A program made the position numbers and the translations under genes. 54,148 nt of DNA from Nitrospira sp. Lineage in GTDB: Bacteria > Nitrospirota > Thermodesulfovibrionia > Thermodesulfovibrionales > SM23-35. The notes beneath the pieces are model-generated. The model was not told where the DNA came from. It searched no databases and worked only from the letters and a program-made list of their open reading frames with translations. The stretch covers positions 1 to 54,148 of the forward strand of contig VGWX01000007.1 in assembly GCA_016873615.1 (NCBI GenBank), read 5' to 3'. This document shows positions 14,925-37,569 of the stretch, piece after piece (position 1 is the first letter of the stretch; every line of letters starts with the position of its first letter).

Positions 14925-15337
14925 AGGACTTTGCAACTATTGCTATTCCGTCCCATCCGAAATATCTTTCCATTGTTAGGTCTGTGACAGGGAAAATAGC
15001 GCAAATATATGAAATCACCGAAACCTTAACAGAGGATATGAAACTTGCTGTTGACGAGGCTTGTGCAAATGTCATTAAACATGCTTACCAGGGAGACAGA
15101 ACAAAAAAGATTGTATTAAAATACAAAATTACAAAAAAGTCCTTTAATGTAATTATCGAAGACAGCGGGATCAAGGCAAAAACGGATTTAATAAAAGGGA
15201 GGGATCTGGACGATATAAGGCCCGGGGGGCTGGGAATTCATTTTATCAAACGGGTATTTGATGTATTTCATTTTGATGAAACCAAGAAAAAAGGCAACAG
15301 ATTGATACTCATTAAATACATGAACATAAAGAAATGA
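14921..15337 (+). CDS. RsbW-like serine-protein kinase / anti-sigma-type ATPase
   Basis: 138 aa, a single GHKL ATPase domain of the HATPase_c_2 (RsbW/SpoIIAB) type. The N-box is VDEACANVIKHAY (~47-59) and the glycine lid is RPGGLGIHFIKRVFD (~100-115). EDSGIKA sits where the ATP-contacting DxG box lies. Such proteins phosphorylate a Ser on a STAS partner and bind the unphosphorylated form or a sigma factor. It overlaps the phosphatase before it by 4 bases and the STAS gene after it by 4 bases. No sigma-factor gene is in the cluster, so its output may not be a sigma factor. Confidence 0.9.
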   Translation: MKDFATIAIPSHPKYLSIVRSVTGKIAQIYEITETLTEDMKLAVDEACANVIKHAYQGDRTKKIVLKYKITKKSFNVIIEDSGIKAKTDLIKGRDLDDIRPGGLGIHFIKRVFDVFHFDETKKKGNRLILIKYMNIKK

Positions 15338-15663
15338 ACATAGGGATCGCATCCTATAAAGGCAGCAAGGTAATCCAGCTGTCAGGAGACATTGACATGT
15401 ACTCGTCTCCTGAACTGAGAACCGAATTGATGGGCCTGATAAAGAAGAGAATATCACCATTATATGTTGACTTTAAAGAGGTATCATATATAGACAGCTC
15501 AGGCATAGCAACCTTTGTTGAGGGGCTGAAGATTATGAAGACATATGATGGTAGATTGCGTCTTTTCTGCATACCTCAGGGAATCATGGAGATATTCAGG
15601 TTTTCGAAGCTTGACAGGGTATTCGAGATATACGGAAGCATTGATGATGCCATCAACAGCTGA
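15334..15663 (+). CDS. STAS-domain protein (anti-anti-sigma / MlaB-like)
   Basis: 109 aa, one STAS domain. The conserved phosphorylation loop is YIDSSGIATF with Asp54-Ser55-Ser56-Gly57, so a phosphorylatable Ser is kept. It resembles SpoIIAA/RsbV (substrate of an RsbW-type kinase), but E. coli MlaB, which binds the MlaF ATPase, is also a STAS protein. Position supports both: it overlaps the kinase gene upstream by 4 bases and its last ~20 bases overlap the start of mlaE downstream. I infer that it may be a phospho-controlled MlaB. That is not shown by sequence alone. Confidence 0.9.
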   Translation: MNIGIASYKGSKVIQLSGDIDMYSSPELRTELMGLIKKRISPLYVDFKEVSYIDSSGIATFVEGLKIMKTYDGRLRLFCIPQGIMEIFRFSKLDRVFEIYGSIDDAINS

Positions 15664-16453
15664 AAACATCCTGAACTCTGCAGTCAGGAAGGCAAGGTCG
15701 ATTTCCAGGGATATACACGATGCGTCAAAGATTATAAACGATATTTTTTTCTGGTCGTTTATCTCTCCCCTTAAAGGCAAGCCGCTCAGGTTCAGGGCGA
15801 GTATTAATGAGATGGTTAAGGCCGGCTATAATTCAGTGCCGATCGTAGCCGTCATTTCATTCTTCATAGGCATCATACTGGCATTTCAGGCAGCATACCA
15901 GCTTAAGAGGGTAGGAGCGCTTATCTATGTCGCAAACCTTGTAGGCGTATCGATAACAAGAGAGCTTGGACCGATAATAACAGCCATTATAGTATCAGGG
16001 AGGAGTGGTTCTGCCTTTGCAGCAGAAATCGGATCGATGAAGGCTGCTGAGGAGGTCGACGCCCTTATCAGCATGGGGATAAATCCCGTAAGGTTTATCG
16101 TTGTACCGAAGCTTATTGCCCTTATGGTTATGGTTCCCGCCCTTACAATATTTTCAGATTTCATAGGCATCCTTGGCGGCTTTGTCCTTTCTGTGACTAT
16201 TCTCGAAATCCATCCTGTCAATTATTTTCTGCAGACAGTGAACGCCCTGCTCGTAAAAGATGTAATGACCGGACTCATTAAGGCATGGGCCTTCGGTATC
16301 GTGATAACGACTGTCGGCGCATACCAGGGATTTAAGGTGACCGGAGGAGCAGAAGAAGTGGGAAGACGTACAACTGCTGCTGTTGTTGCCTCTATTTTTC
16401 TGGTAATTGTTTTTGATCTGTTTTTTACGACTATGTTTTATTATTTCACATAA
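15644..16453 (+). CDS. mlaE: MlaE-type ABC permease (copy A)
   Basis: 269 aa from ATG 15644 (15647 is equally possible; GGAAG lies 5 bases upstream). Six-helix-type permease with family segments VPIVAVISFFIGIILAFQAAYQL, GVSITRELGPIITAIIVSGRSGSAFAAEIG, the EEVDAL coupling helix, and a final ~ITTVGAYQGFKVTGGAEEVG. MlaE, with MlaF and MlaD, moves phospholipids between inner membrane and periplasmic carriers. It starts inside the STAS gene, so translation of the two is coupled. The second copy at 32919 has the same organisation but no STAS gene. Confidence 0.9.
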   Translation: MMPSTAENILNSAVRKARSISRDIHDASKIINDIFFWSFISPLKGKPLRFRASINEMVKAGYNSVPIVAVISFFIGIILAFQAAYQLKRVGALIYVANLVGVSITRELGPIITAIIVSGRSGSAFAAEIGSMKAAEEVDALISMGINPVRFIVVPKLIALMVMVPALTIFSDFIGILGGFVLSVTILEIHPVNYFLQTVNALLVKDVMTGLIKAWAFGIVITTVGAYQGFKVTGGAEEVGRRTTAAVVASIFLVIVFDLFFTTMFYYFT

Positions 16454-16460
16454 GATTATT

Positions 16461-17246
16461 ATGGAAAATGCAATCCAGGTGACCGGTCTTGTTGCCCGTT
16501 ACGGAGACAGAGAAATCCTGAAAGATATATCGTTCTTTATACCAAGGGGAATGACGACTGTAATACTCGGAGGAAGCGGATGCGGCAAAAGCACTCTCCT
16601 GAAACATCTGATCGGGCTTTTGAAACCAACACAGGGACAGATCAAGATCAACGGAAAAAACATAGCAGCGCTGAACGAGAACGAATTGAATGAAGTGCGG
16701 AAGAAGATGGGAATTTTATTTCAGGGAGCTGCCCTTCTCAATTCCATGACGATCGCAGACAACGTTGCCCTTCCTATGAGGGAGCATACCAGGCTGGAAG
16801 AAACCACAATACAGATTATGGTGCGCATGAAGCTTGACCTCGTTGGACTCTCAGGTTTTGAAGAGTTCTATCCTTCACAGCTTTCCGGTGGAATGAAAAA
16901 GAGAGCAGGCCTGGCAAGGGCAATAGCGCTGGACCCTGAGCTGCTTTTCTTTGACGAGCCATCTGCAGGGCTTGATCCCATAACTGCCGCAGGACTTGAT
17001 GAGTTGATACTAAAACTCAGGAATGTATTTAAGATGACGATAATTGTTGTAACCCATGAGCTTCCAAGTGTATTCACGATCGCGGATTATGTTATCATGC
17101 TTGATGCCGGCGAGATTATTTTTTCAGGAACGCTCGATGAGCTGAGGGCGTCTGTTCATCCAAGGATAAAGATGTTTCTTGAGAGACAGCCGGAACAGGA
17201 GACATATTCACCTGAGGATTATTTCAGGATTATTGCCGGAGAATAA
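16461..17246 (+). CDS. mlaF: MlaF-type ABC ATPase (copy A)
   Basis: 261 aa from ATG 16461, the first Met that fits the domain start (MENAIQVTGLVARYGDREIL). Walker A GGSGCGKST, Q-loop LFQGAALLNSMTI, signature LSGGMKKRAGLARA, Walker B LLFFDEPSAGLDP and the switch His in VVTHELPS are all present. The ending IKMFLERQPEQETYSPEDYF extends past the core domain. It powers the MlaE permease at the inner membrane; in E. coli the STAS protein MlaB binds this subunit. It lies 7 bp after mlaE. Confidence 0.9.
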   Translation: MENAIQVTGLVARYGDREILKDISFFIPRGMTTVILGGSGCGKSTLLKHLIGLLKPTQGQIKINGKNIAALNENELNEVRKKMGILFQGAALLNSMTIADNVALPMREHTRLEETTIQIMVRMKLDLVGLSGFEEFYPSQLSGGMKKRAGLARAIALDPELLFFDEPSAGLDPITAAGLDELILKLRNVFKMTIIVVTHELPSVFTIADYVIMLDAGEIIFSGTLDELRASVHPRIKMFLERQPEQETYSPEDYFRIIAGE

Positions 17247-17284
17247 AAAATCCTCTATTTAAAAAGGGGAGGCAGGGTTAGATA

Positions 17285-18181
17285 TTGAAAGAAGAGATTA
17301 AGGCAGGAATAATAATCATCGCATCCCTCGCTATACTCAGCAGCTTTATCATTCTGATAGGCGGCAGCGAGCTTTTTGAAAAATATGACAAATACTACAT
17401 GAAAGTTATGAATACAGCCGGACTCGAAACCGGCGCTCAGGTCAGGCTCGGTGGTGTAAGGGTTGGAAGGGTTACGGACGTAAAACCACCTGGCAGTCCC
17501 GGAGAGCCTGTTGCTGTGGAAATCGGAGTAAAAAGAGGGACTGTTCTGTATAAAGGCACCAAGGCTCTGATTACACAGATAGGATTTGTCGGAGATATAT
17601 ATCTCCTTCTTGCCGTTGACGGCACTATAAACGAGAGGATTAAAGTTGGTGATGTTATTCCGACTGAAGAGAAGGTTCAGTTTGACCTGCTTATGGCAAA
17701 AATGAATACCCTGTCACAATCAGTGGATATTCTTATTAAAGATATAAATAAGCTTTTTAGCGAGAAGAATGTAAAAGGGATAGAAACTTTAATCGGAAAT
17801 ACAAACAATGCTATTATTTCCGGTTCATCGAATATTGAAAAAATAGCGATGAACATGAAGGATACTTCAGCAAAGCTTGAACGTGTTCTGAATGAGGTAG
17901 AAGATATTATCCACAGCAATAAAGCTGAAGTTGCGCAATTGATAAAGAAGGCAAGGGAAGATATAGAGAAAGCTGGAGAAATGATCAATAGCATAGAATC
18001 AACAGCGAAGTCGGTTGAAAAGACATCAAAATCAGCTGATAAAGCTATTAACCTTCAGTCCAGAAATCTCGAAAACCTTATCGGAGCCATGACAAAAACA
18101 ACAGAAGAGTTGCAGGATCTCCTCAGGGAGATAAAACATAAGCCATGGAGTTTTATTTACAAAGAAAAAAGGGGGGAATGA
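17285..18181 (+). CDS. mlaD: MlaD-type MCE substrate-binding protein (copy A)
   Basis: 298 aa from TTG 17285. One membrane anchor (~7-27: GIIIIASLAILSSFIILIGG), an MCE domain (~38-118: NTAGLETGAQVRLGGVRVGRV, LITQIGFVGDIYLLL), then a long helical tail (~130-290) with heptad-like pattern ending KPWSFIYKEKR. MCE proteins form hexameric rings that pass lipid between membranes. The short upstream gap (17247-17284) is a decayed copy of the G-rich repeat and supplies the GGGGAGG that may serve as ribosome site. The next gene starts one base after its stop. Confidence 0.9.
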   Translation: MKEEIKAGIIIIASLAILSSFIILIGGSELFEKYDKYYMKVMNTAGLETGAQVRLGGVRVGRVTDVKPPGSPGEPVAVEIGVKRGTVLYKGTKALITQIGFVGDIYLLLAVDGTINERIKVGDVIPTEEKVQFDLLMAKMNTLSQSVDILIKDINKLFSEKNVKGIETLIGNTNNAIISGSSNIEKIAMNMKDTSAKLERVLNEVEDIIHSNKAEVAQLIKKAREDIEKAGEMINSIESTAKSVEKTSKSADKAINLQSRNLENLIGAMTKTTEELQDLLREIKHKPWSFIYKEKRGE

Positions 18182-18182
18182 G

Positions 18183-18782
18183 ATGAAAAAAATACTTTTA
18201 TTCATCTTATCTGTTTGTTTCTTATATGCCTGCTCAATGCCTGAAACAAAGATTTACAGCATTTATCTGCCTGCAGCCTCTGCGTCCACGGATATCGGGA
18301 AGGAGAGGGCAGATGAGGCAAGCTCAAGGTCTGTCGTAATACTTATGAATTCCCCCAGGTATCTTGTTCAGCCTTACATTGCTTACAGGAATTCACCGTA
18401 TCAACTTGAGATATCAAGATATTCAAAGTGGGAATCACCGCCCGGTGATATAGTAAAGGATGCATTCAAGAATTACTTATCATCTTCAGGGGTTTTTAAT
18501 GAGGTCAGGGCATCGAATGTCGTGCCCGAGGGATTTTATTCATTTGAAATAAACCTGAAAAAATTTGAGAGATATGATCAGGGAAACGATTCCTACGGGG
18601 AACTTTATTATGATATTAAAGTTTATTCACCTGACAGCAAGGAATTATATAGGGCAACCGTTTTAAAAAAGGTTAAACTCGACAACAGTACCTTCCTTTG
18701 TCTTGCTGAGGGATTAAGCAGCGCACTTTCTGAAAGCATCAAAGAAGTAACTGGGAGTTTAAATGAAGCGGTAGATAATTAG
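18183..18782 (+). CDS. ABC-type transport auxiliary lipoprotein (PqiC/MlaX-like)
   Basis: 199 aa. Residues 1-17 are a lipoprotein signal with lipobox FLYAC (Cys ~16), followed by SMPETKIYSIYLP, the usual opening of the ABC-transport auxiliary family (PqiC-type). SPYQLEISRYSKWESPPGDIVKDAF is the conserved centre. These outer-membrane lipoproteins accompany MCE transporters and probably link the MlaD ring or tunnel to the outer membrane. It begins one base after mlaD and closes the operon; the convergent khpA gene ends 26 bp beyond. Confidence 0.85.
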   Translation: MKKILLFILSVCFLYACSMPETKIYSIYLPAASASTDIGKERADEASSRSVVILMNSPRYLVQPYIAYRNSPYQLEISRYSKWESPPGDIVKDAFKNYLSSSGVFNEVRASNVVPEGFYSFEINLKKFERYDQGNDSYGELYYDIKVYSPDSKELYRATVLKKVKLDNSTFLCLAEGLSSALSESIKEVTGSLNEAVDN

Positions 18783-31782: not shown

Positions 31783-32935
31783 AGGGCCTGTTGCAGAGAT
31801 CAGTTTATCTGCTATAGGGCAAAACCTTCAGGCTATAAGAAAGATTGTCAAAAACCGTCCGGTAATTGCTGTGGTAAAGGCTGATGCTTATGGTCACGGT
31901 GCGGTTGAAGTTTCAAAAAGACTCCTCAAAGAAGGAATCTCTTACCTTGCAGTTGCGTATATCAACGAAGCTGTTGAACTCAGGGACGCCGGCATCACTG
32001 TCCCTATAATTGTTCTATTTGACACGGAAGATGTTAAATCAATCTTTGATTTTAACCTCATGCCTGTTATCTGCGATATGGATAATGCCTTATCTCTATC
32101 ACGGGAATCAAAAAAAAGAAACATCCCTCTAAAGGTTCATGTTAAGGTTGACACCGGTATGGGAAGGATGGGATTGCATGGGAATCATATCATTACGGAT
32201 TTGATGAAGATATCAGACATGCATGGACTCGAAATAACAGGCATGTTAAGCCATTTTTCAGAAGCCGACCTCTCAGACAGGACTTATGCAAAAATTCAGC
32301 TTGAACGATTTAATGCAATAAAGGAAAAAATCTCTGAGAAATTAAAGAGAAGGATTTTTTCTCATATAGCGAACAGCGCAGCCATCCTGAGCTTTCAGGA
32401 AGCGCACCTCGATGCAGTAAGGCCAGGACTGATGCTTTATGGATATTCTCCCTTTAATTATGGAACAAATCCCCCCTTACCCCCCTTTGCTAAAGGGGGG
32501 CAGGGGGGGATTACTCATGGCATTAATCTTATTCCCGCGATGTCAATCAAAACCAGGATTCTTTGCATCAGAAATGTGCCTTCAGGTACGCCAATAAGTT
32601 ACGGCAGAACTTTCATTACAAAGAGACCGAGCAGGATAGGTGTGATTCCTTTAGGATATGCTGACGGATATAACAGACTGTTTTCGAATAATGCTGAAGT
32701 GCTTGTAAACAGAAGGCGTGCCCCTGTCGCAGGCAGGGTATGCATGGACCTGACCATGATTGACCTTACAGATGTCAAAGGCGCTAAAGAAAAAGATGAA
32801 GTAGTCATAATCGGCAGGCAGGGCAATGAATCAATAAAAGCTGAAGAGCTTGCATTTCGCTCAAATACAATATCGTATGAGATACTGACAACGCTTGGAA
32901 GCAGATCAAAGAGAACATATGTTGAGACCCATTGA
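31775..32935 (+). CDS. alr: Alanine racemase carrying an in-frame repeat-derived insert
   Basis: 386 aa from GTG 31775. The PLP lysine is in AVVKADAYGHGA (~35), the substrate/Tyr side in VPSGTPISYGRTF (~270) and RVCMDLTMIDL (~318). Makes D-Ala for peptidoglycan; the D,D-carboxypeptidase at 45626 trims such peptides. Residues ~232-246 (NPPLPPFAKGGQGGI) come from a 45-bp palindromic repeat (32468-32512), lying between LYGYSPFN and the LIPAMSIKTRIL strand, a surface loop region in alanine racemases. The insert keeps the frame. mlaE begins inside the last codons. Confidence 0.93.
   Translation: MFRGPVAEISLSAIGQNLQAIRKIVKNRPVIAVVKADAYGHGAVEVSKRLLKEGISYLAVAYINEAVELRDAGITVPIIVLFDTEDVKSIFDFNLMPVICDMDNALSLSRESKKRNIPLKVHVKVDTGMGRMGLHGNHIITDLMKISDMHGLEITGMLSHFSEADLSDRTYAKIQLERFNAIKEKISEKLKRRIFSHIANSAAILSFQEAHLDAVRPGLMLYGYSPFNYGTNPPLPPFAKGGQGGITHGINLIPAMSIKTRILCIRNVPSGTPISYGRTFITKRPSRIGVIPLGYADGYNRLFSNNAEVLVNRRRAPVAGRVCMDLTMIDLTDVKGAKEKDEVVIIGRQGNESIKAEELAFRSNTISYEILTTLGSRSKRTYVETH
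32468..32512. repeat. 45-bp palindromic repeat inside alr
   Basis: AATCCCCCCTTACCCCCC (32468-32485) and GGGGGGCAGGGGGGGATT (32495-32512) pair around TTTGCTAAA. Fifteen codons exactly, no stop in the used frame. Same family as 5976-6077. Confidence 0.9.
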
Positions 32936-33692
32936 ACTTATAGGAAAGACAATTATACGTTTCTCCGAGGAACTTGGCAGGATATTGATACTCCTTTCTT
33001 TAACTGTCAGGCACATGTTGCTTCCCCCCTATGAAGTGAGGAATACCTTCAAACAAATGCTTGAGATCGGAGTGCGATCTTTGCCTGTTGTGCTGATAAC
33101 AGCAATTTTTACAGGAATGGTCTTTGCCCTCCAGACCTTTACAGGGTTTAAGAGATTTGGCGCTGAAGGAGTTGTAGGAACTGTTGTTGCGCTTTCGATG
33201 ACGAGAGAACTTGGGCCTGTCCTTACAGGTCTTATAGTAGCAGGAAGGGCAGGGGCTGCCATGGCAGCTGAATTAGGAACTATGAGAGTTACAGAACAGA
33301 TAGATGCACTCGAAACATTGGCAACGAATCCTATAAAATATCTTATCGTTCCGAGATTTATAGCCGGTATGCTTATGCTTCCGGCGCTTGCTGCAGTAGC
33401 TGACATAACCGGTATAATAGGCGGTTATTTCATTACTGTGGGACTCTTTGATACAAGTTCGATCGCATACTGGAAAAGGACATGGAATTATTTGATGATA
33501 AGTGATATTTACAATGGCTTGATAAAAGCAGGATTTTTTGGTGCAAGCATTTCACTGTTAAGCTGTTATAAGGGGTTTTATACAAGGGGAGGAGCTGAAG
33601 GTGTCGGAAAAGCAACAACCGGAGCAGTAGTTTTATCATCTATGACCATATTAATATCTGACTATTTTCTCTCGGTATGGTTATTTAAATGA
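32919..33692 (+). CDS. mlaE: MlaE-type ABC permease (copy B)
   Basis: 257 aa from ATG 32919 (a TTG at 32895 is in frame but deep inside alr). Family segments SLPVVLITAIFTGMVFALQT, MTRELGPVLTGLIVAGRAGA, MRVTEQIDALETLATNPIKY (coupling helix) and SCYKGFYTRGGAEGVGKATT. With the next two genes forms an inner-membrane lipid transporter. It overlaps alr by 17 bases. Clearly paralogous to copy A at 15644, but without an adjacent STAS gene. Confidence 0.92.
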   Translation: MLRPIELIGKTIIRFSEELGRILILLSLTVRHMLLPPYEVRNTFKQMLEIGVRSLPVVLITAIFTGMVFALQTFTGFKRFGAEGVVGTVVALSMTRELGPVLTGLIVAGRAGAAMAAELGTMRVTEQIDALETLATNPIKYLIVPRFIAGMLMLPALAAVADITGIIGGYFITVGLFDTSSIAYWKRTWNYLMISDIYNGLIKAGFFGASISLLSCYKGFYTRGGAEGVGKATTGAVVLSSMTILISDYFLSVWLFK

Positions 33693-33708
33693 AGATTAAT
33701 TATTGCTT

Positions 33709-34488
33709 ATGATAGAGATCATTAACGTTCACAAATCATTTGGGAAAAAATATGTGCTTGGAGGAGTAAATCTCAGGGTTGAAAAAGGCGAAAGCATGGT
33801 CGTTATCGGCGGGAGCGGTTCCGGGAAAAGCGTTTTACTAAAGCATATTATAGGAATTATAAAGCCGGATGAAGGCAAAGTACTTATAGACGGCATCGAT
33901 ATAACTTCACTTAGAGAGAATGAACTATATGAAGTCAGAAAGCAATTTGGTATGCTTTTTCAAATGGCAGCATTATTTGATTCAATGACTGTATGGGAGA
34001 ATGTTGCTTTTGCATTGCTCAGGCAAAAAAAATTAAGCGTAAAAGACGCTAAGTCTCATGCCATTGAAAAATTGAGAATAGTTGGGCTCGTAGGCGTAGA
34101 GGATTTAATGCCATCAGAACTTTCAGGAGGGATGAAAAAAAGGGTAGGGCTTGCAAGGGCTATTGCACATGAACCTGACATATTGTTGTATGATGAGCCT
34201 ACAACAGGACTTGACCCCATTATGGCAGATGCGATTAATGACCTTATTGTTGATATGAGAGAGGCCCTCTCTGTTACCAGTATTGCTATAACTCATGATA
34301 TGAACAGTGCTTACAAAATTGGCGACAAAATTGCCATGCTTTATGAAGGGAAGATAATAGAAACAGCAACCCCTGATGCAATAAAGAGTACGCAAAACCC
34401 TCTGGTAAGGCAATTTATAACCGGCAGCGCAGTAGGCCCAATAAAGATAGAAGGAGTAGATTATGAGAAGTCTTTCAACAGAACTTAA
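33709..34488 (+). CDS. mlaF: MlaF-type ABC ATPase (copy B)
   Basis: 259 aa from ATG 33709 (TTG 33703 is alternative). Walker A GGSGSGKSVLLKH, Q-loop LFQMAALFDSMTV, signature LSGGMKKRVGLARA, Walker B ILLYDEPTTGLDP, switch His in AITHDMNS. The C-terminal extension (VRQFITGSAVGPIKIEGVDY) fits MlaF. mlaD overlaps its end by 26 bases. Confidence 0.93.
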   Translation: MIEIINVHKSFGKKYVLGGVNLRVEKGESMVVIGGSGSGKSVLLKHIIGIIKPDEGKVLIDGIDITSLRENELYEVRKQFGMLFQMAALFDSMTVWENVAFALLRQKKLSVKDAKSHAIEKLRIVGLVGVEDLMPSELSGGMKKRVGLARAIAHEPDILLYDEPTTGLDPIMADAINDLIVDMREALSVTSIAITHDMNSAYKIGDKIAMLYEGKIIETATPDAIKSTQNPLVRQFITGSAVGPIKIEGVDYEKSFNRT

Positions 34489-35947
34489 GGTAGGTTTCTT
34501 TGCACTATTCGTCATATCAATCCTTGTATTTATGACATTTAAAATAGGCGCCCTCGACTGGATGAAAAAAGAAGGTTATATGGTACATGTCTATTTTAAA
34601 AATATTGCGGGCCTTGACGAAAAAACCAAAGTGAAAATAGCCGGAGTCAATGCCGGTTTTATAGAAAAAATACAGCTTTCAGACGGCAAGGCAAAGCTGA
34701 CTGTCAGGATGAATAAGGAAATCCCCCTTTATGAAGACGCAAGCGCTTCTATCAAGGCGTCGGGCCTTCTTGGCGACAAGTATCTCGACATAAGGCCGGG
34801 CTATCAAAAACCAGCACTCAAAAATGGAGCCACCATCCATAATGTTGTGGAGATTGTCGACCTTGATGATCTGACGCGAAATCTTACCGCTGTGTCGGAA
34901 AATATCAATATTCTTGCCAAATCATTCAATGAATCATTTGGCACTGAAGAGGCCAAAGATGCATTAAAACAATCTGTGTTGAATATAAAAGACATAACTA
35001 TAGATTTAAAGGAAGCCATTTCTGTAAATGACAATAAACTGAGAGATGCGCTCGACAACATTAATAATCTTACGGCTTCAATTAATGACCTGATTCAAAA
35101 GAATAAAGATACAGTATCAACAGCTGCAGGCAATATAAAAGACTTTTCTGTAAGTTTAAAGCAGGACACCCCTCAGCTGATTGCGAAACTTAATAAGGCA
35201 GCTGATGAACTGAAGGCCATGGTCGAGGAGAACCGACCCACCATAAAAAGTGCTGCAGACTCTATTGACAACATCGCAAAGAAAATTGATAAAGGCGAAG
35301 GGACTCTCGGCAAGCTCGTAAAGGATGAGAGTCTTTATGAGAATATAAACAAGGCTGCAGCCGGGATCGATAAGACTATATCGACAGTGGAAAGGTTCAA
35401 GACTTTCATAACCTTTCAGGGAGATTATCTTACGGAAGCGAAAGAGGGGAAGGGATATTTCTATCTCACTCTCCAGCCAAAACCCGATAAGTACTATATT
35501 CTGGGTGTTGTCGGAGATCCCTTGGGAAAATCAACTACAAAAGAGACAACTACAATAACCTCCAGCGGCACAACTAAGGTTAAGGAGATCGAGACAAAGA
35601 AAAAGATAGAATTTACAGCACAGTATGCGATGAGGTACAAAGATGCAGTATTAAGATTAGGACTTACAGAAAATACATTTGGCGCAGGGGCAGACCTTTT
35701 CTTTAATAACGACAGAGGCAAATTAGCAATAGACGCCTGGGACTTTTCCAATGATGAAGAAGAATCTAAAAACCCCCATGTGAGAGCCGGGGTAGATTAT
35801 TTTATTTTCAAAAATGTATTTATATCAGCTGGTGTTGATAATATCATGAACAAGAAGTGGCGTGGCGGCTACGCAGGCATGGGACTGCGTTTTGAGGATG
35901 AAGATATCAAGTACCTGTTTGGGACATTGCCAAAGATTTCTCCCTAA
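34463..35947 (+). CDS. mlaD: MlaD-type MCE protein with C-terminal beta-rich region (copy B)
   Basis: 494 aa, far longer than E. coli MlaD (~180) and copy A (298). Anchor helix ~10-28 (VGFFALFVISILVFMTFKI); MCE domain ~38-118 (KNIAGLDEKTKVKIAGVNAG, SGLLGDKYLDIRPG); long helical stretch ~130-310 with repeated DNI/AAxxI heptads; then ~315-490 an alternating, aromatic-rich segment: GKGYFYLTLQP, KIEFTAQYAMRY, AVLRLGLTENTFGAGADLFF, VRAGVDYFIFKNVFISAGVD, GGYAGMGLRF. This last part looks like outer-membrane beta-strands. Such MCE-helix-barrel fusions are known from diderm Firmicutes, where one protein spans the periplasm. Spanning here is inferred. Confidence 0.88.
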   Translation: MRSLSTELKVGFFALFVISILVFMTFKIGALDWMKKEGYMVHVYFKNIAGLDEKTKVKIAGVNAGFIEKIQLSDGKAKLTVRMNKEIPLYEDASASIKASGLLGDKYLDIRPGYQKPALKNGATIHNVVEIVDLDDLTRNLTAVSENINILAKSFNESFGTEEAKDALKQSVLNIKDITIDLKEAISVNDNKLRDALDNINNLTASINDLIQKNKDTVSTAAGNIKDFSVSLKQDTPQLIAKLNKAADELKAMVEENRPTIKSAADSIDNIAKKIDKGEGTLGKLVKDESLYENINKAAAGIDKTISTVERFKTFITFQGDYLTEAKEGKGYFYLTLQPKPDKYYILGVVGDPLGKSTTKETTTITSSGTTKVKEIETKKKIEFTAQYAMRYKDAVLRLGLTENTFGAGADLFFNNDRGKLAIDAWDFSNDEEESKNPHVRAGVDYFIFKNVFISAGVDNIMNKKWRGGYAGMGLRFEDEDIKYLFGTLPKISP

Positions 35948-36000
35948 AGATGGCAACAATTTATAATTATCAAAACTTAAAACGGAAGGAGGTGAAGAAG

Positions 36001-36396
36001 ATGCGGATTCCGTTCATGAAGCATATTTCCTGGTACATGATTATCGCCATGTTTGTAATCGGCATAACACCAAGGGTTGATGCAGGGCTTGCACCTTCAG
36101 AGATTATGGCACTCGCTCAGTCAGATAGGGTTGCAGATCTTGATAAGATTCAGAAAGTCATTGAAGTCAAGGCAATAAGTGAAAGACTGAAACAGTTCGG
36201 GCTTACACAGGACGAGGTTCAGGCAAGACTTGCACAAATGAGTGACCAGCAGATACATCAGGTAGCCCTGCAATTAGATAGTTTGAAGGTCGGACAGTCT
36301 GATGCCCTCTTTGTAATAATCGCTATTCTGGTGATAGCAATTCTTGTTGTTGTGCTTTTAAAGGTTACAGGGCATAAGGTAATCATTACAAAATAG
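36001..36396 (+). CDS. PA2779-family protein
   Basis: 131 aa from ATG 36001, set by AAGGAGGTGA upstream (an in-frame ATG at 35950 lacks a site). Signal peptide/helix 1-28, then the family core LAPSEIMALAQSDRVADLDK, ERLKQFGLTQDEVQARLAQM and SDQQIHQVALQLDSL, and a C-terminal membrane helix (~105-124, ALFVIIAILVIAILVVVLLK). PA2779-family genes usually sit beside a PA2778-family C39-like peptidase, as here. Function unknown. It follows mlaD by 53 bp. Confidence 0.8.
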   Translation: MRIPFMKHISWYMIIAMFVIGITPRVDAGLAPSEIMALAQSDRVADLDKIQKVIEVKAISERLKQFGLTQDEVQARLAQMSDQQIHQVALQLDSLKVGQSDALFVIIAILVIAILVVVLLKVTGHKVIITK

Positions 36397-36435
36397 GGAA
36401 ATACAGGTAGCAATATTACAATTCAACATACAGTA

Positions 36436-36502
36436 TTGCTTCGCTGCTCTCGCAATGACAGAACATTTATGATCTTCAGTCATTGCGAGGAGCGAAGCTG
36501 CA
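36436..36502. repeat. ATTGCGAG-type inverted repeat overlapping a gene start
   Basis: CTTCGCTGCTCTCGCAATGA (from 36439) pairs with GTCATTGCGAGGAGCGAAG (36479-36497) around ~20 bases, with two extra bases on the left arm. ATTGCGAGGAGCGAAG repeats are widespread dispersed elements. The right arm is translated as SHCEERSCK in the peptidase gene. Confidence 0.75.
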
Positions 36503-37038
36503 AATCAATATGTCTTTTATTAATTATCCTTAATGCCCTTTTTTTCTTGTCTTCCTGTGCTCACAGGACAAGCATACCTGAATCATCAGCTCAGCATATG
36601 ATTGAAAACGTGCCTTTCTATCCGCAGGAAACCTATCAGTGCGGACCGGCATCACTTGCCGGGGTGTTGAACTACTGGAGAATTCCGGCAAGGCCGGATG
36701 ATATCGCAAAAGATATTTTCAGTGAAAGCGCAAAAGGAACGCTAAGCATTGACATGGTTATGTATGCGCAGAAAAAAGGCCTGTTCGCTTTCCAGTATAA
36801 AGGCAGCCCGGAGGATCTGAAAAAAAATATAGACGCAGGTTATCCTCTCATTGTCCTTGTCGATTACGGGATATATTTCTATCAGGCAAACCATTTCATG
36901 GTGGTTGTCGGATATAATGAAAATGGGGTAAGAGTTAATTCAGGGAAAGATAACAATGTATTTATATCCAATAAAGATTTTTTAAGAGTATGGAAAAGGG
37001 CAGATTACTGGACTCTGCTCATAAAAAGCAAAGAGTAG
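36469..37038 (+). CDS. PA2778-family C39-like cysteine peptidase, lipoprotein
   Basis: 189 aa from ATG 36469 (TTG 36436 in frame upstream is inside the repeat). Residues 4-14 derive from an ATTGCGAG repeat; a hydrophobic stretch with lipobox LSSC (Cys ~30) follows. Peptidase core: the catalytic Cys in YQCGPASLAGVLNYW, His in NHFMVVVGYNENG, and Asn/Asp in VNSGKDN. In Pseudomonas the equivalent protein continues into TPR repeats; here TPRs are encoded by the next gene. Substrate unknown. Confidence 0.8.
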   Translation: MIFSHCEERSCKSICLLLIILNALFFLSSCAHRTSIPESSAQHMIENVPFYPQETYQCGPASLAGVLNYWRIPARPDDIAKDIFSESAKGTLSIDMVMYAQKKGLFAFQYKGSPEDLKKNIDAGYPLIVLVDYGIYFYQANHFMVVVGYNENGVRVNSGKDNNVFISNKDFLRVWKRADYWTLLIKSKE

Positions 37039-37162
37039 ACAGTAGGTAGTAGACTGTAGACAGGAGCAGCATATACGGAAAAATAAAACATGAAAAACAA
37101 TAATATATTTTTCTTTAAAATATCTGTTTGCTGTCTACTTTCTACAGTCTACAGTCTACTGT
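37036..37162. repeat. TAGACTGTAGAC-type inverted repeat around a gene start
   Basis: Left arm GTAGACAGTAGGTAGTAGAC and TGTAGACAGGAGCAGC (37036-37070) pairs with the right arm GCTGTCTACTTTCTACAGTC and TACAGTCTACTG (37130-37161). The right arm is translated as CCLLSTVYSLL in the signal peptide of the TPR lipoprotein. Confidence 0.7.
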
Positions 37163-37569
37163 TGTTTTCATGTGCTTTGCCGAGGATTGTGGTGCTCGAT
37201 GACCCATTGAGCCCGGAAGAGCATCTTAACCTTGGTGTAAGTTATGAAAAGAAAGGCGAGCTTGATAATGCCCTGAAGGAATATCAGGAAGCATCCGGAA
37301 AATTACCGGCTGCATATCTGTTTATGGGCAATATATATTTTCATAAAAAGGAATATGATGAAGCAGAAACATATTATAAAAAGGCAATAAAGAAAGACCA
37401 GCACAATGCTGATGCGTATAACAATCTTGCCTGGCTATATTACACAAAGAACGAAAAACTTGATGAAGCAGAAAAACTTGCACTAAAAGCTATTGAGCTG
37501 AATCCTGCTAAAAAGGACATCTATCAGGATACCCTTGATAAAATCAGAGGACTCAAAAGATCGCAATAA
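37090..37569 (+). CDS. TPR-repeat lipoprotein
   Basis: 159 aa. Signal peptide 1-27 with lipobox LLFSC; part of it (CLLSTVYSLL) is encoded by repeat DNA. Three TPR units follow: AEEHLNLGVSYEKKGELDNALKEY-like at ~42, AAYLFMGNIYFHKKEYDEAE at ~75, ADAYNNLAWLYYTKNEKLDE at ~107. Probably the split equivalent of the TPR half of PA2778 proteins and a partner of the peptidase 51 bp upstream. Confidence 0.8.
   Translation: MKNNNIFFFKISVCCLLSTVYSLLLFSCALPRIVVLDDPLSPEEHLNLGVSYEKKGELDNALKEYQEASGKLPAAYLFMGNIYFHKKEYDEAETYYKKAIKKDQHNADAYNNLAWLYYTKNEKLDEAEKLALKAIELNPAKKDIYQDTLDKIRGLKRSQ

Follow-up and report, generated by a model that had tools for sequence, protein, structure and literature searches.

A long MlaD with a predicted C-terminal outer-membrane barrel in a Nitrospira sp. 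genome

The window analyzed here, a stretch of 54,148 nucleotides from Nitrospira sp. (contig VGWX01000007.1), encodes a long MlaD in which a predicted inner-membrane anchor, an MCE domain, a helical stretch and a conserved, predicted ten-strand barrel follow one another in a single frame. This architecture is already known, and the case is a well-supported further example of the barrel-bearing long MlaD described in V. parvula in 2023, also with ten strands (Grasekamp 2023, PMC10665443). What is new here is that, of 295 genomes sampled from the phylum, 124 have the barrel, mostly without MlaA and MlaC, the source genome keeping both. According to the models, the protein probably bridges the inner and outer membranes. 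Among the papers listed by a literature search covering titles and abstract openings, none deals with MlaD of Nitrospirota or Nitrospira, and the string "nitrospir" is absent from the main text of Grasekamp 2023 (PMC10665443), whose supplementary data may include the phylum.

Table 1. Features of the mlaEFD locus, with positions in the window
Feature	Positions	Strand	Basis
MlaE permease	32895..33692	+	PF02405, E 2.5e-83
MlaF-like ATPase	33703..34488	+	PF00005, E 1.1e-33; MlaF as top NCBIfam match, scoring under the cut-off
Long MlaD of 494 aa, C-terminal outer-membrane barrel predicted	34463..35947	+	open frame, PF02470, AlphaFold2
Predicted inner-membrane anchor helix, residues 6-29	34478..34549	+	AlphaFold2
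MCE domain, residues 38-133	34574..34861	+	PF02470 at 38-113; AlphaFold2 strands
Helical stretch, residues 134-304, predicted to span the periplasm	34862..35374	+	low-confidence AlphaFold2 helices
Predicted ten-stranded antiparallel barrel, residues 313-479	35399..35899	+	AlphaFold2, Foldseek, VIA-align
Loop/hairpin of variable length joining strands 3 and 4, residues 352-381, probably extracellular	35516..35605	+	length 11-33 (66 sequences)
Conserved tail EDED(hydrophobic)KY past the barrel, residues 478-487	35894..35923	+	alignment

Gene layout and predicted fold

The mlaD frame starts with ATG, preceded by GAAGGAG, and overlaps mlaF by 26 bases. With mlaE upstream, the gene order is alr, mlaE, mlaF, mlaD, all in one direction. 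Promoter and terminator scans gave counts near or slightly above chance (21 versus 17.5 and 9 versus 5.2, respectively). PF02470 matches the protein once (E 3e-18). With TIGR04430, which models the short MlaD found in the classical system, the score is 107.2 bits, under the cut-off of 135. Among the matches listed (25 of 27 for Pfam, 16 for NCBIfam), no family extends past residue 329. Searched against plasmids, the barrel gave no match, and the whole protein matched 46 records, of which the 15 listed all end at or before residue 342.

From the letters alone, the first-pass annotation had proposed an anchor, an MCE domain, a helical stretch and a C-terminal beta region, and AlphaFold2 agrees closely with this layout. 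The full-length model (66 sequences, mean pLDDT 67) places the anchor at residues 6-29, the MCE strands up to about residue 129, helices of low confidence at 134-304 and ten strands, with block means of 51-86, at 313-479. The model of residues 305-494 (81 sequences) has a mean pLDDT of 81.8 and a pTM of 0.72, with 100 of its 190 residues at a pLDDT of at least 90. It contains the same ten strands, together with an additional hairpin (block means 55-67) within the loop 352-381, and the tail forms a short helix. Across 81 sequences the columns of the beta region average 60% identity, which marks it as conserved, and as modeled its fold is a ten-strand barrel. A disordered tail and a beta-sandwich, the outcomes that would have spoken against an outer-membrane-like domain, were both rejected on the basis of the full-length and 305-494 models. 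Structure prediction and fold comparison, together with the amphipathic strands and the conserved sequence, support the reading as an MCE-helix-barrel protein.

The MlaD of V. parvula likewise combines an anchor, one MCE domain, a long helical region and a ten-stranded C-terminal barrel, with mlaE and mlaF in the same operon (PMC10665443). It differs in length (419 residues versus 494 here) and in the neighbors of mlaD, which are tolC/tamB in V. parvula and alr and DUF6627/C39 here (PMC10665443); moreover, MlaA, MlaC and three other MlaDs occur in the genome studied here. Fusions of this kind had been placed in diderm Firmicutes by the first-pass annotation; they are indeed known there, but this range is too narrow, since reported barrel MlaDs come from diderm Terrabacteria as well as from some Proteobacteria and related phyla (PMC10665443). 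The Mla system of E. coli shares the MCE domain, MlaE and MlaF, as well as MlaA and MlaC, which lie elsewhere in the source genome, whereas its short MlaD has neither the long helical extension nor the barrel. Brucella Mpc also places an elongated MCE protein on an MlaEF-type transporter, but uses a PqiC-like outer-membrane lipoprotein and no fused barrel; its layout is that of the second Mla operon of the window, copy A (PMC12436622). In mycobacterial Mce1 (8fed), the MCE domain is followed by a helical needle. Mce1 is however a heterohexamer in which each subunit contributes one strand to a shared small barrel, instead of one whole barrel per subunit (PMC10665443).

Possible roles of the barrel

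A transenvelope MlaD of the V. parvula type is, in our view, the likely product of this gene. In this reading, six copies would sit on MlaE2MlaF2 in the inner membrane via their anchors and an MCE ring, their helices would build a hydrophobic tunnel spanning the periplasm, and the outer membrane would hold the ten-stranded C-terminal barrels. As in the mechanism proposed for V. parvula, MlaE2F2 would drive lipid through the MCE ring and the six-helix tunnel to the barrels, phospholipid passing between the membranes without an MlaC shuttle or an MlaA lipoprotein. A helix rises 1.5 Å per residue; taken as one helix, residues 134-276 would measure about 215 Å (143 x 1.5), which would fit a periplasm, and this segment covers 107-164 residues across the 66 aligned sequences. 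The presence of MlaA and MlaC in the same genome counts against this explanation. Barrel-tipped MlaDs have been proposed to belong to the ancestral means of phospholipid movement between two membranes.

A serious alternative, to which we would give somewhat poorer than even chances, is that the barrel serves for anchoring and not as a conduit: it would only attach the end of the MlaD tunnel to the outer membrane, lipid entering or leaving by another route or partner. Ten-strand barrels are narrow, a barrel this small being too narrow for phospholipid according to Grasekamp 2023, where anchoring is raised as a possible role (PMC10665443). This alternative is also favored by two relatives from one genus (L049:2929-3909 and L050:2986-3966), 326 aa long, which retain the anchor, MCE domain and helices and end past the helices without a barrel; the profile search of the phylum genomes found no barrel match in either genome. 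Conversely, the strong conservation of the tail and of the outward face of strands 1-2 exceeds what a bare anchor would seem to need.

These two relatives belong, with four others, to what amounts to a natural deletion series for the role of the barrel. In another genus, L048:3001-4410 and L173:301-1707 keep the barrel and stop ahead of the tail, and in a third, L033:1519-2967 and L034:1504-2952 end at the position of K483, where they carry R or K, and lack the tyrosine. Inspection by eye revealed no readable tail 3' of the stop codons in any of the six, and a DUF6627-like protein starting downstream in L048, L049, L050 and L173, as at the source locus. The genomes of these last four have MlaC and lack MlaA, and those of L033 and L034 have both.

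Conservation of the tail, expressed by weight among those of the 121 aligned sequences having the residue, reaches 99% for D479, 100% for K483 and 99% for Y484. The motif FED[ER]D[FIL]KY is carried by 78 of the 80 sequences supplied by the contig scan, which used it as one of its two patterns. Because the scan itself selected on the tail and two relatives stop inside it, this conservation is weaker evidence. The 40 sequences from the phylum profile search are a fairer sample, though that profile also contains the tail: the lysine is present in 39 and the tyrosine in 38, the exceptions being L183, with a T, and L173, with no tail.

In strands 1-2, and in no others, conservation is clearly higher on the outward than on the inward face (entropy of 1.22 versus 1.89 for strand 1 and 0.94 versus 1.97 for strand 2, strands 3-4 being about equal). 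As the outward face is conserved there, a protein contact may exist on this side, for instance between the barrels of the proposed hexamer. Conservation of the tail and of strands 1-2 does not feature in the consulted passages of Grasekamp 2023 (PMC10665443). In a more speculative and rather unlikely scheme, the six barrels would pack via strands 1-2 around the hexamer axis, the tail would close or gate the periplasmic mouth, and lipid would move between the barrels along their outside instead of through their lumens. The bridge would then work beside the MlaA/MlaC shuttle with divided labor, perhaps in opposite directions.

Membrane barrel or soluble barrel

The strands of the barrel are markedly amphipathic. 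With strand limits taken from the full-length AlphaFold2 model, hydrophobicity alternation reaches 2.95, versus 1.42 +/- 0.33 for shuffled strands, none of the 10,000 shuffles scoring as high. The faces that we infer to be outward carry no charge in seven of the ten strands; the charges found in strands 3, 4 and 10 (positions 343, 390 and 479) are at or near strand ends. In strands 5-10 the outward-assigned face is the more variable one, as expected of lipid contact. The loops on one side of the barrel measure 4, 30, 2, 12 and 8 residues and the opposite turns 2, 2, 4 and 4, giving mean lengths of 11.2 and 3.0, the former owing much to the single loop of 30. Long loops on one side and short turns on the other are the pattern of outer-membrane proteins. 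In the beta-signal of outer-membrane barrels, the last strand ends in an aromatic residue. Strand 10 ends around F477, a phenylalanine in 95% by weight of 121 sequences, which corresponds to this signal, but is followed by a tail, unlike in classical cases. The genome also holds two Omp85 matches and one LptD match.

Covariation analysis showed that adjacent strand pairs outscore the others (p 5e-4). Parity is consistent with a single outward face at 10 of 10 interfaces, once strand 3 is given the phase that fits. Of the 20 best pairs listed, 11 are non-adjacent, and these follow the same parity when read by eye. Given this refitting and the parity shared by non-adjacent pairs, covariation does not prove the strand registers. 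The orientation of strand 3 was assigned post hoc, hydrophobicity alone placing it in the opposite sense, and for strands 1-2 the hydrophobic phase was kept as outward. We infer both the closure of the barrel and its outward face.

In fold comparison of the barrel model with Foldseek, 45 of the 50 best rows are titled as outer-membrane or designed transmembrane barrels, several being the same protein, four others are hotdog or thioesterase entries, and the title of the remaining one, 5g26, is uninformative. No match was obtained at E <= 0.001, and TM-scores were low (0.35-0.39 in the first three rows). The top row of VIA-align was OpcA (Z 16.7, rmsd 4.5, 155 aligned); another of its matches was 8uzl, a designed transmembrane barrel (Z 13.8, rmsd 2.6, 133 aligned). 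By sequence, the best E value of the barrel profile against the PDB was 0.06. With the full-length model, the 50 Foldseek rows listed are all Mla or Mce chains, 8fed coming first.

VIA-align additionally matched barrels not titled as membrane proteins, such as BFA1 (Z 12.5) and nitrobindin (Z 11.9, rmsd 3.4, 137 aligned), other soluble barrels being present among its 50 rows. A soluble periplasmic beta-barrel of the nitrobindin or lipocalin kind, binding lipid inside, is compatible with this fold similarity, but appears very unlikely in view of the predominance of membrane barrels in Foldseek and of outward-assigned faces that are largely uncharged and, in strands 5-10, variable. In addition, the isolated barrel of V. 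parvula MlaD fractionates with the outer membrane (PMC10665443). That the beta region might be a disordered or degenerate remnant with no defined fold, as could be imagined because most long MlaDs have no complete barrel (Grasekamp 2023, PMC10665443), is scarcely credible against the pLDDT values and the column identity reported above.

Distribution in the phylum and other Mla systems of the genome

Scanning contigs with the barrel profile revealed 149 relatives in 183 candidate stretches. Further analysis used the best 80, comprising 74 with Nitrospirota-type names, four "Bacterium BMS3", one "uncultured" and one "Nitrospinota". A full-length frame was obtained for 74 of the 80 loci, 65 of which were aligned with the long MlaD studied here for the full-length model. 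In these best 80 of 149 loci, mlaD neighbors mlaF in 73, mlaE in 68 and DUF6627 in 16; for six of the seven loci without mlaF, no more than about 230 bases separate the contig start from the mlaD frame, and the seventh is L111.

Among the 295 phylum genomes, the barrel profile matched 124, MlaA 148 (one match, in G127, being weak) and MlaC 187. The three samples were taken as the same genomes since their handles agree, the non-matching genomes not all being listed. On this basis, 95 of the 124 barrel genomes have neither MlaA nor MlaC, 22 have both and 7 have MlaC only. Genomes without the barrel comprise 126 with MlaA and MlaC, 32 with MlaC only and 13 with none of the three. The distributions of the barrel and of MlaA or MlaC are complementary (Fisher p of 2.7e-22 and 2.7e-36, respectively, a test that ignores phylogeny and genome completeness), and the same trend is reported across bacteria (Grasekamp 2023, PMC10665443). 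In this phylum, the barrel largely replaces MlaA/MlaC, with exceptions such as the source genome that keep both. The family of the source genome is itself an exception, as 8 of its 10 barrel-bearing genomes among the matches listed also have MlaA. We also observed MlaC without MlaA in 39 of the 295 genomes, and MlaA without MlaC in none.

The source genome carries four MlaDs and four MlaEs and differs from a minimal MlaEFD genome, which would lack MlaA and MlaC, by one copy of each, found together on contig C8. Separate operons encode two short MlaDs with lengths of 146 and 157 residues. Copy A (window 15641-18782, +) consists of MlaE, MlaF, a 298-residue MlaD and a PF03886 (PqiC-type) lipoprotein. 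The first-pass annotation had suggested that the two Mla systems of the window use different outer-membrane solutions, which holds at the level of annotation: copy A has the lipoprotein, and its MlaD is devoid of a C-terminal beta region. With the barrel MlaD, the copy A lipoprotein and MlaA/MlaC, three different outer-membrane solutions coexist, by annotation, in this genome. Since MlaA, MlaC and two further short MlaDs are present, the organism need not rely on the barrel bridge alone.

Several neighboring or related genes display further features. A frame with a STAS domain (15334-15663) lies just upstream of copy A. In one of the short-MlaD operons (L057:4864-6264, contig C47), the MlaF-type ATPase bears a C-terminal GGDEF domain (PF00990, residues 298-450, 26.2 bits for a cut-off of 23.8), and is by its sequence a putative Mla ATPase fused to a diguanylate-cyclase-like domain. 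The MlaA of contig C8 (L058:4974-6365) ends in a SPOR domain (PF05036, E 2.2e-12) and sits after MlaC, with a small EF-hand protein downstream. Finally, 3' of mlaD (window 35950-37569, +), a DUF6627/PA2779-family protein is followed by a C39-like peptidase and then a TPR protein. The latter two correspond to the first and the last part of a single NCBIfam model, NF033920 (PA2778 family), each scoring below its cut-off, so that this family seems to be split into two genes here.
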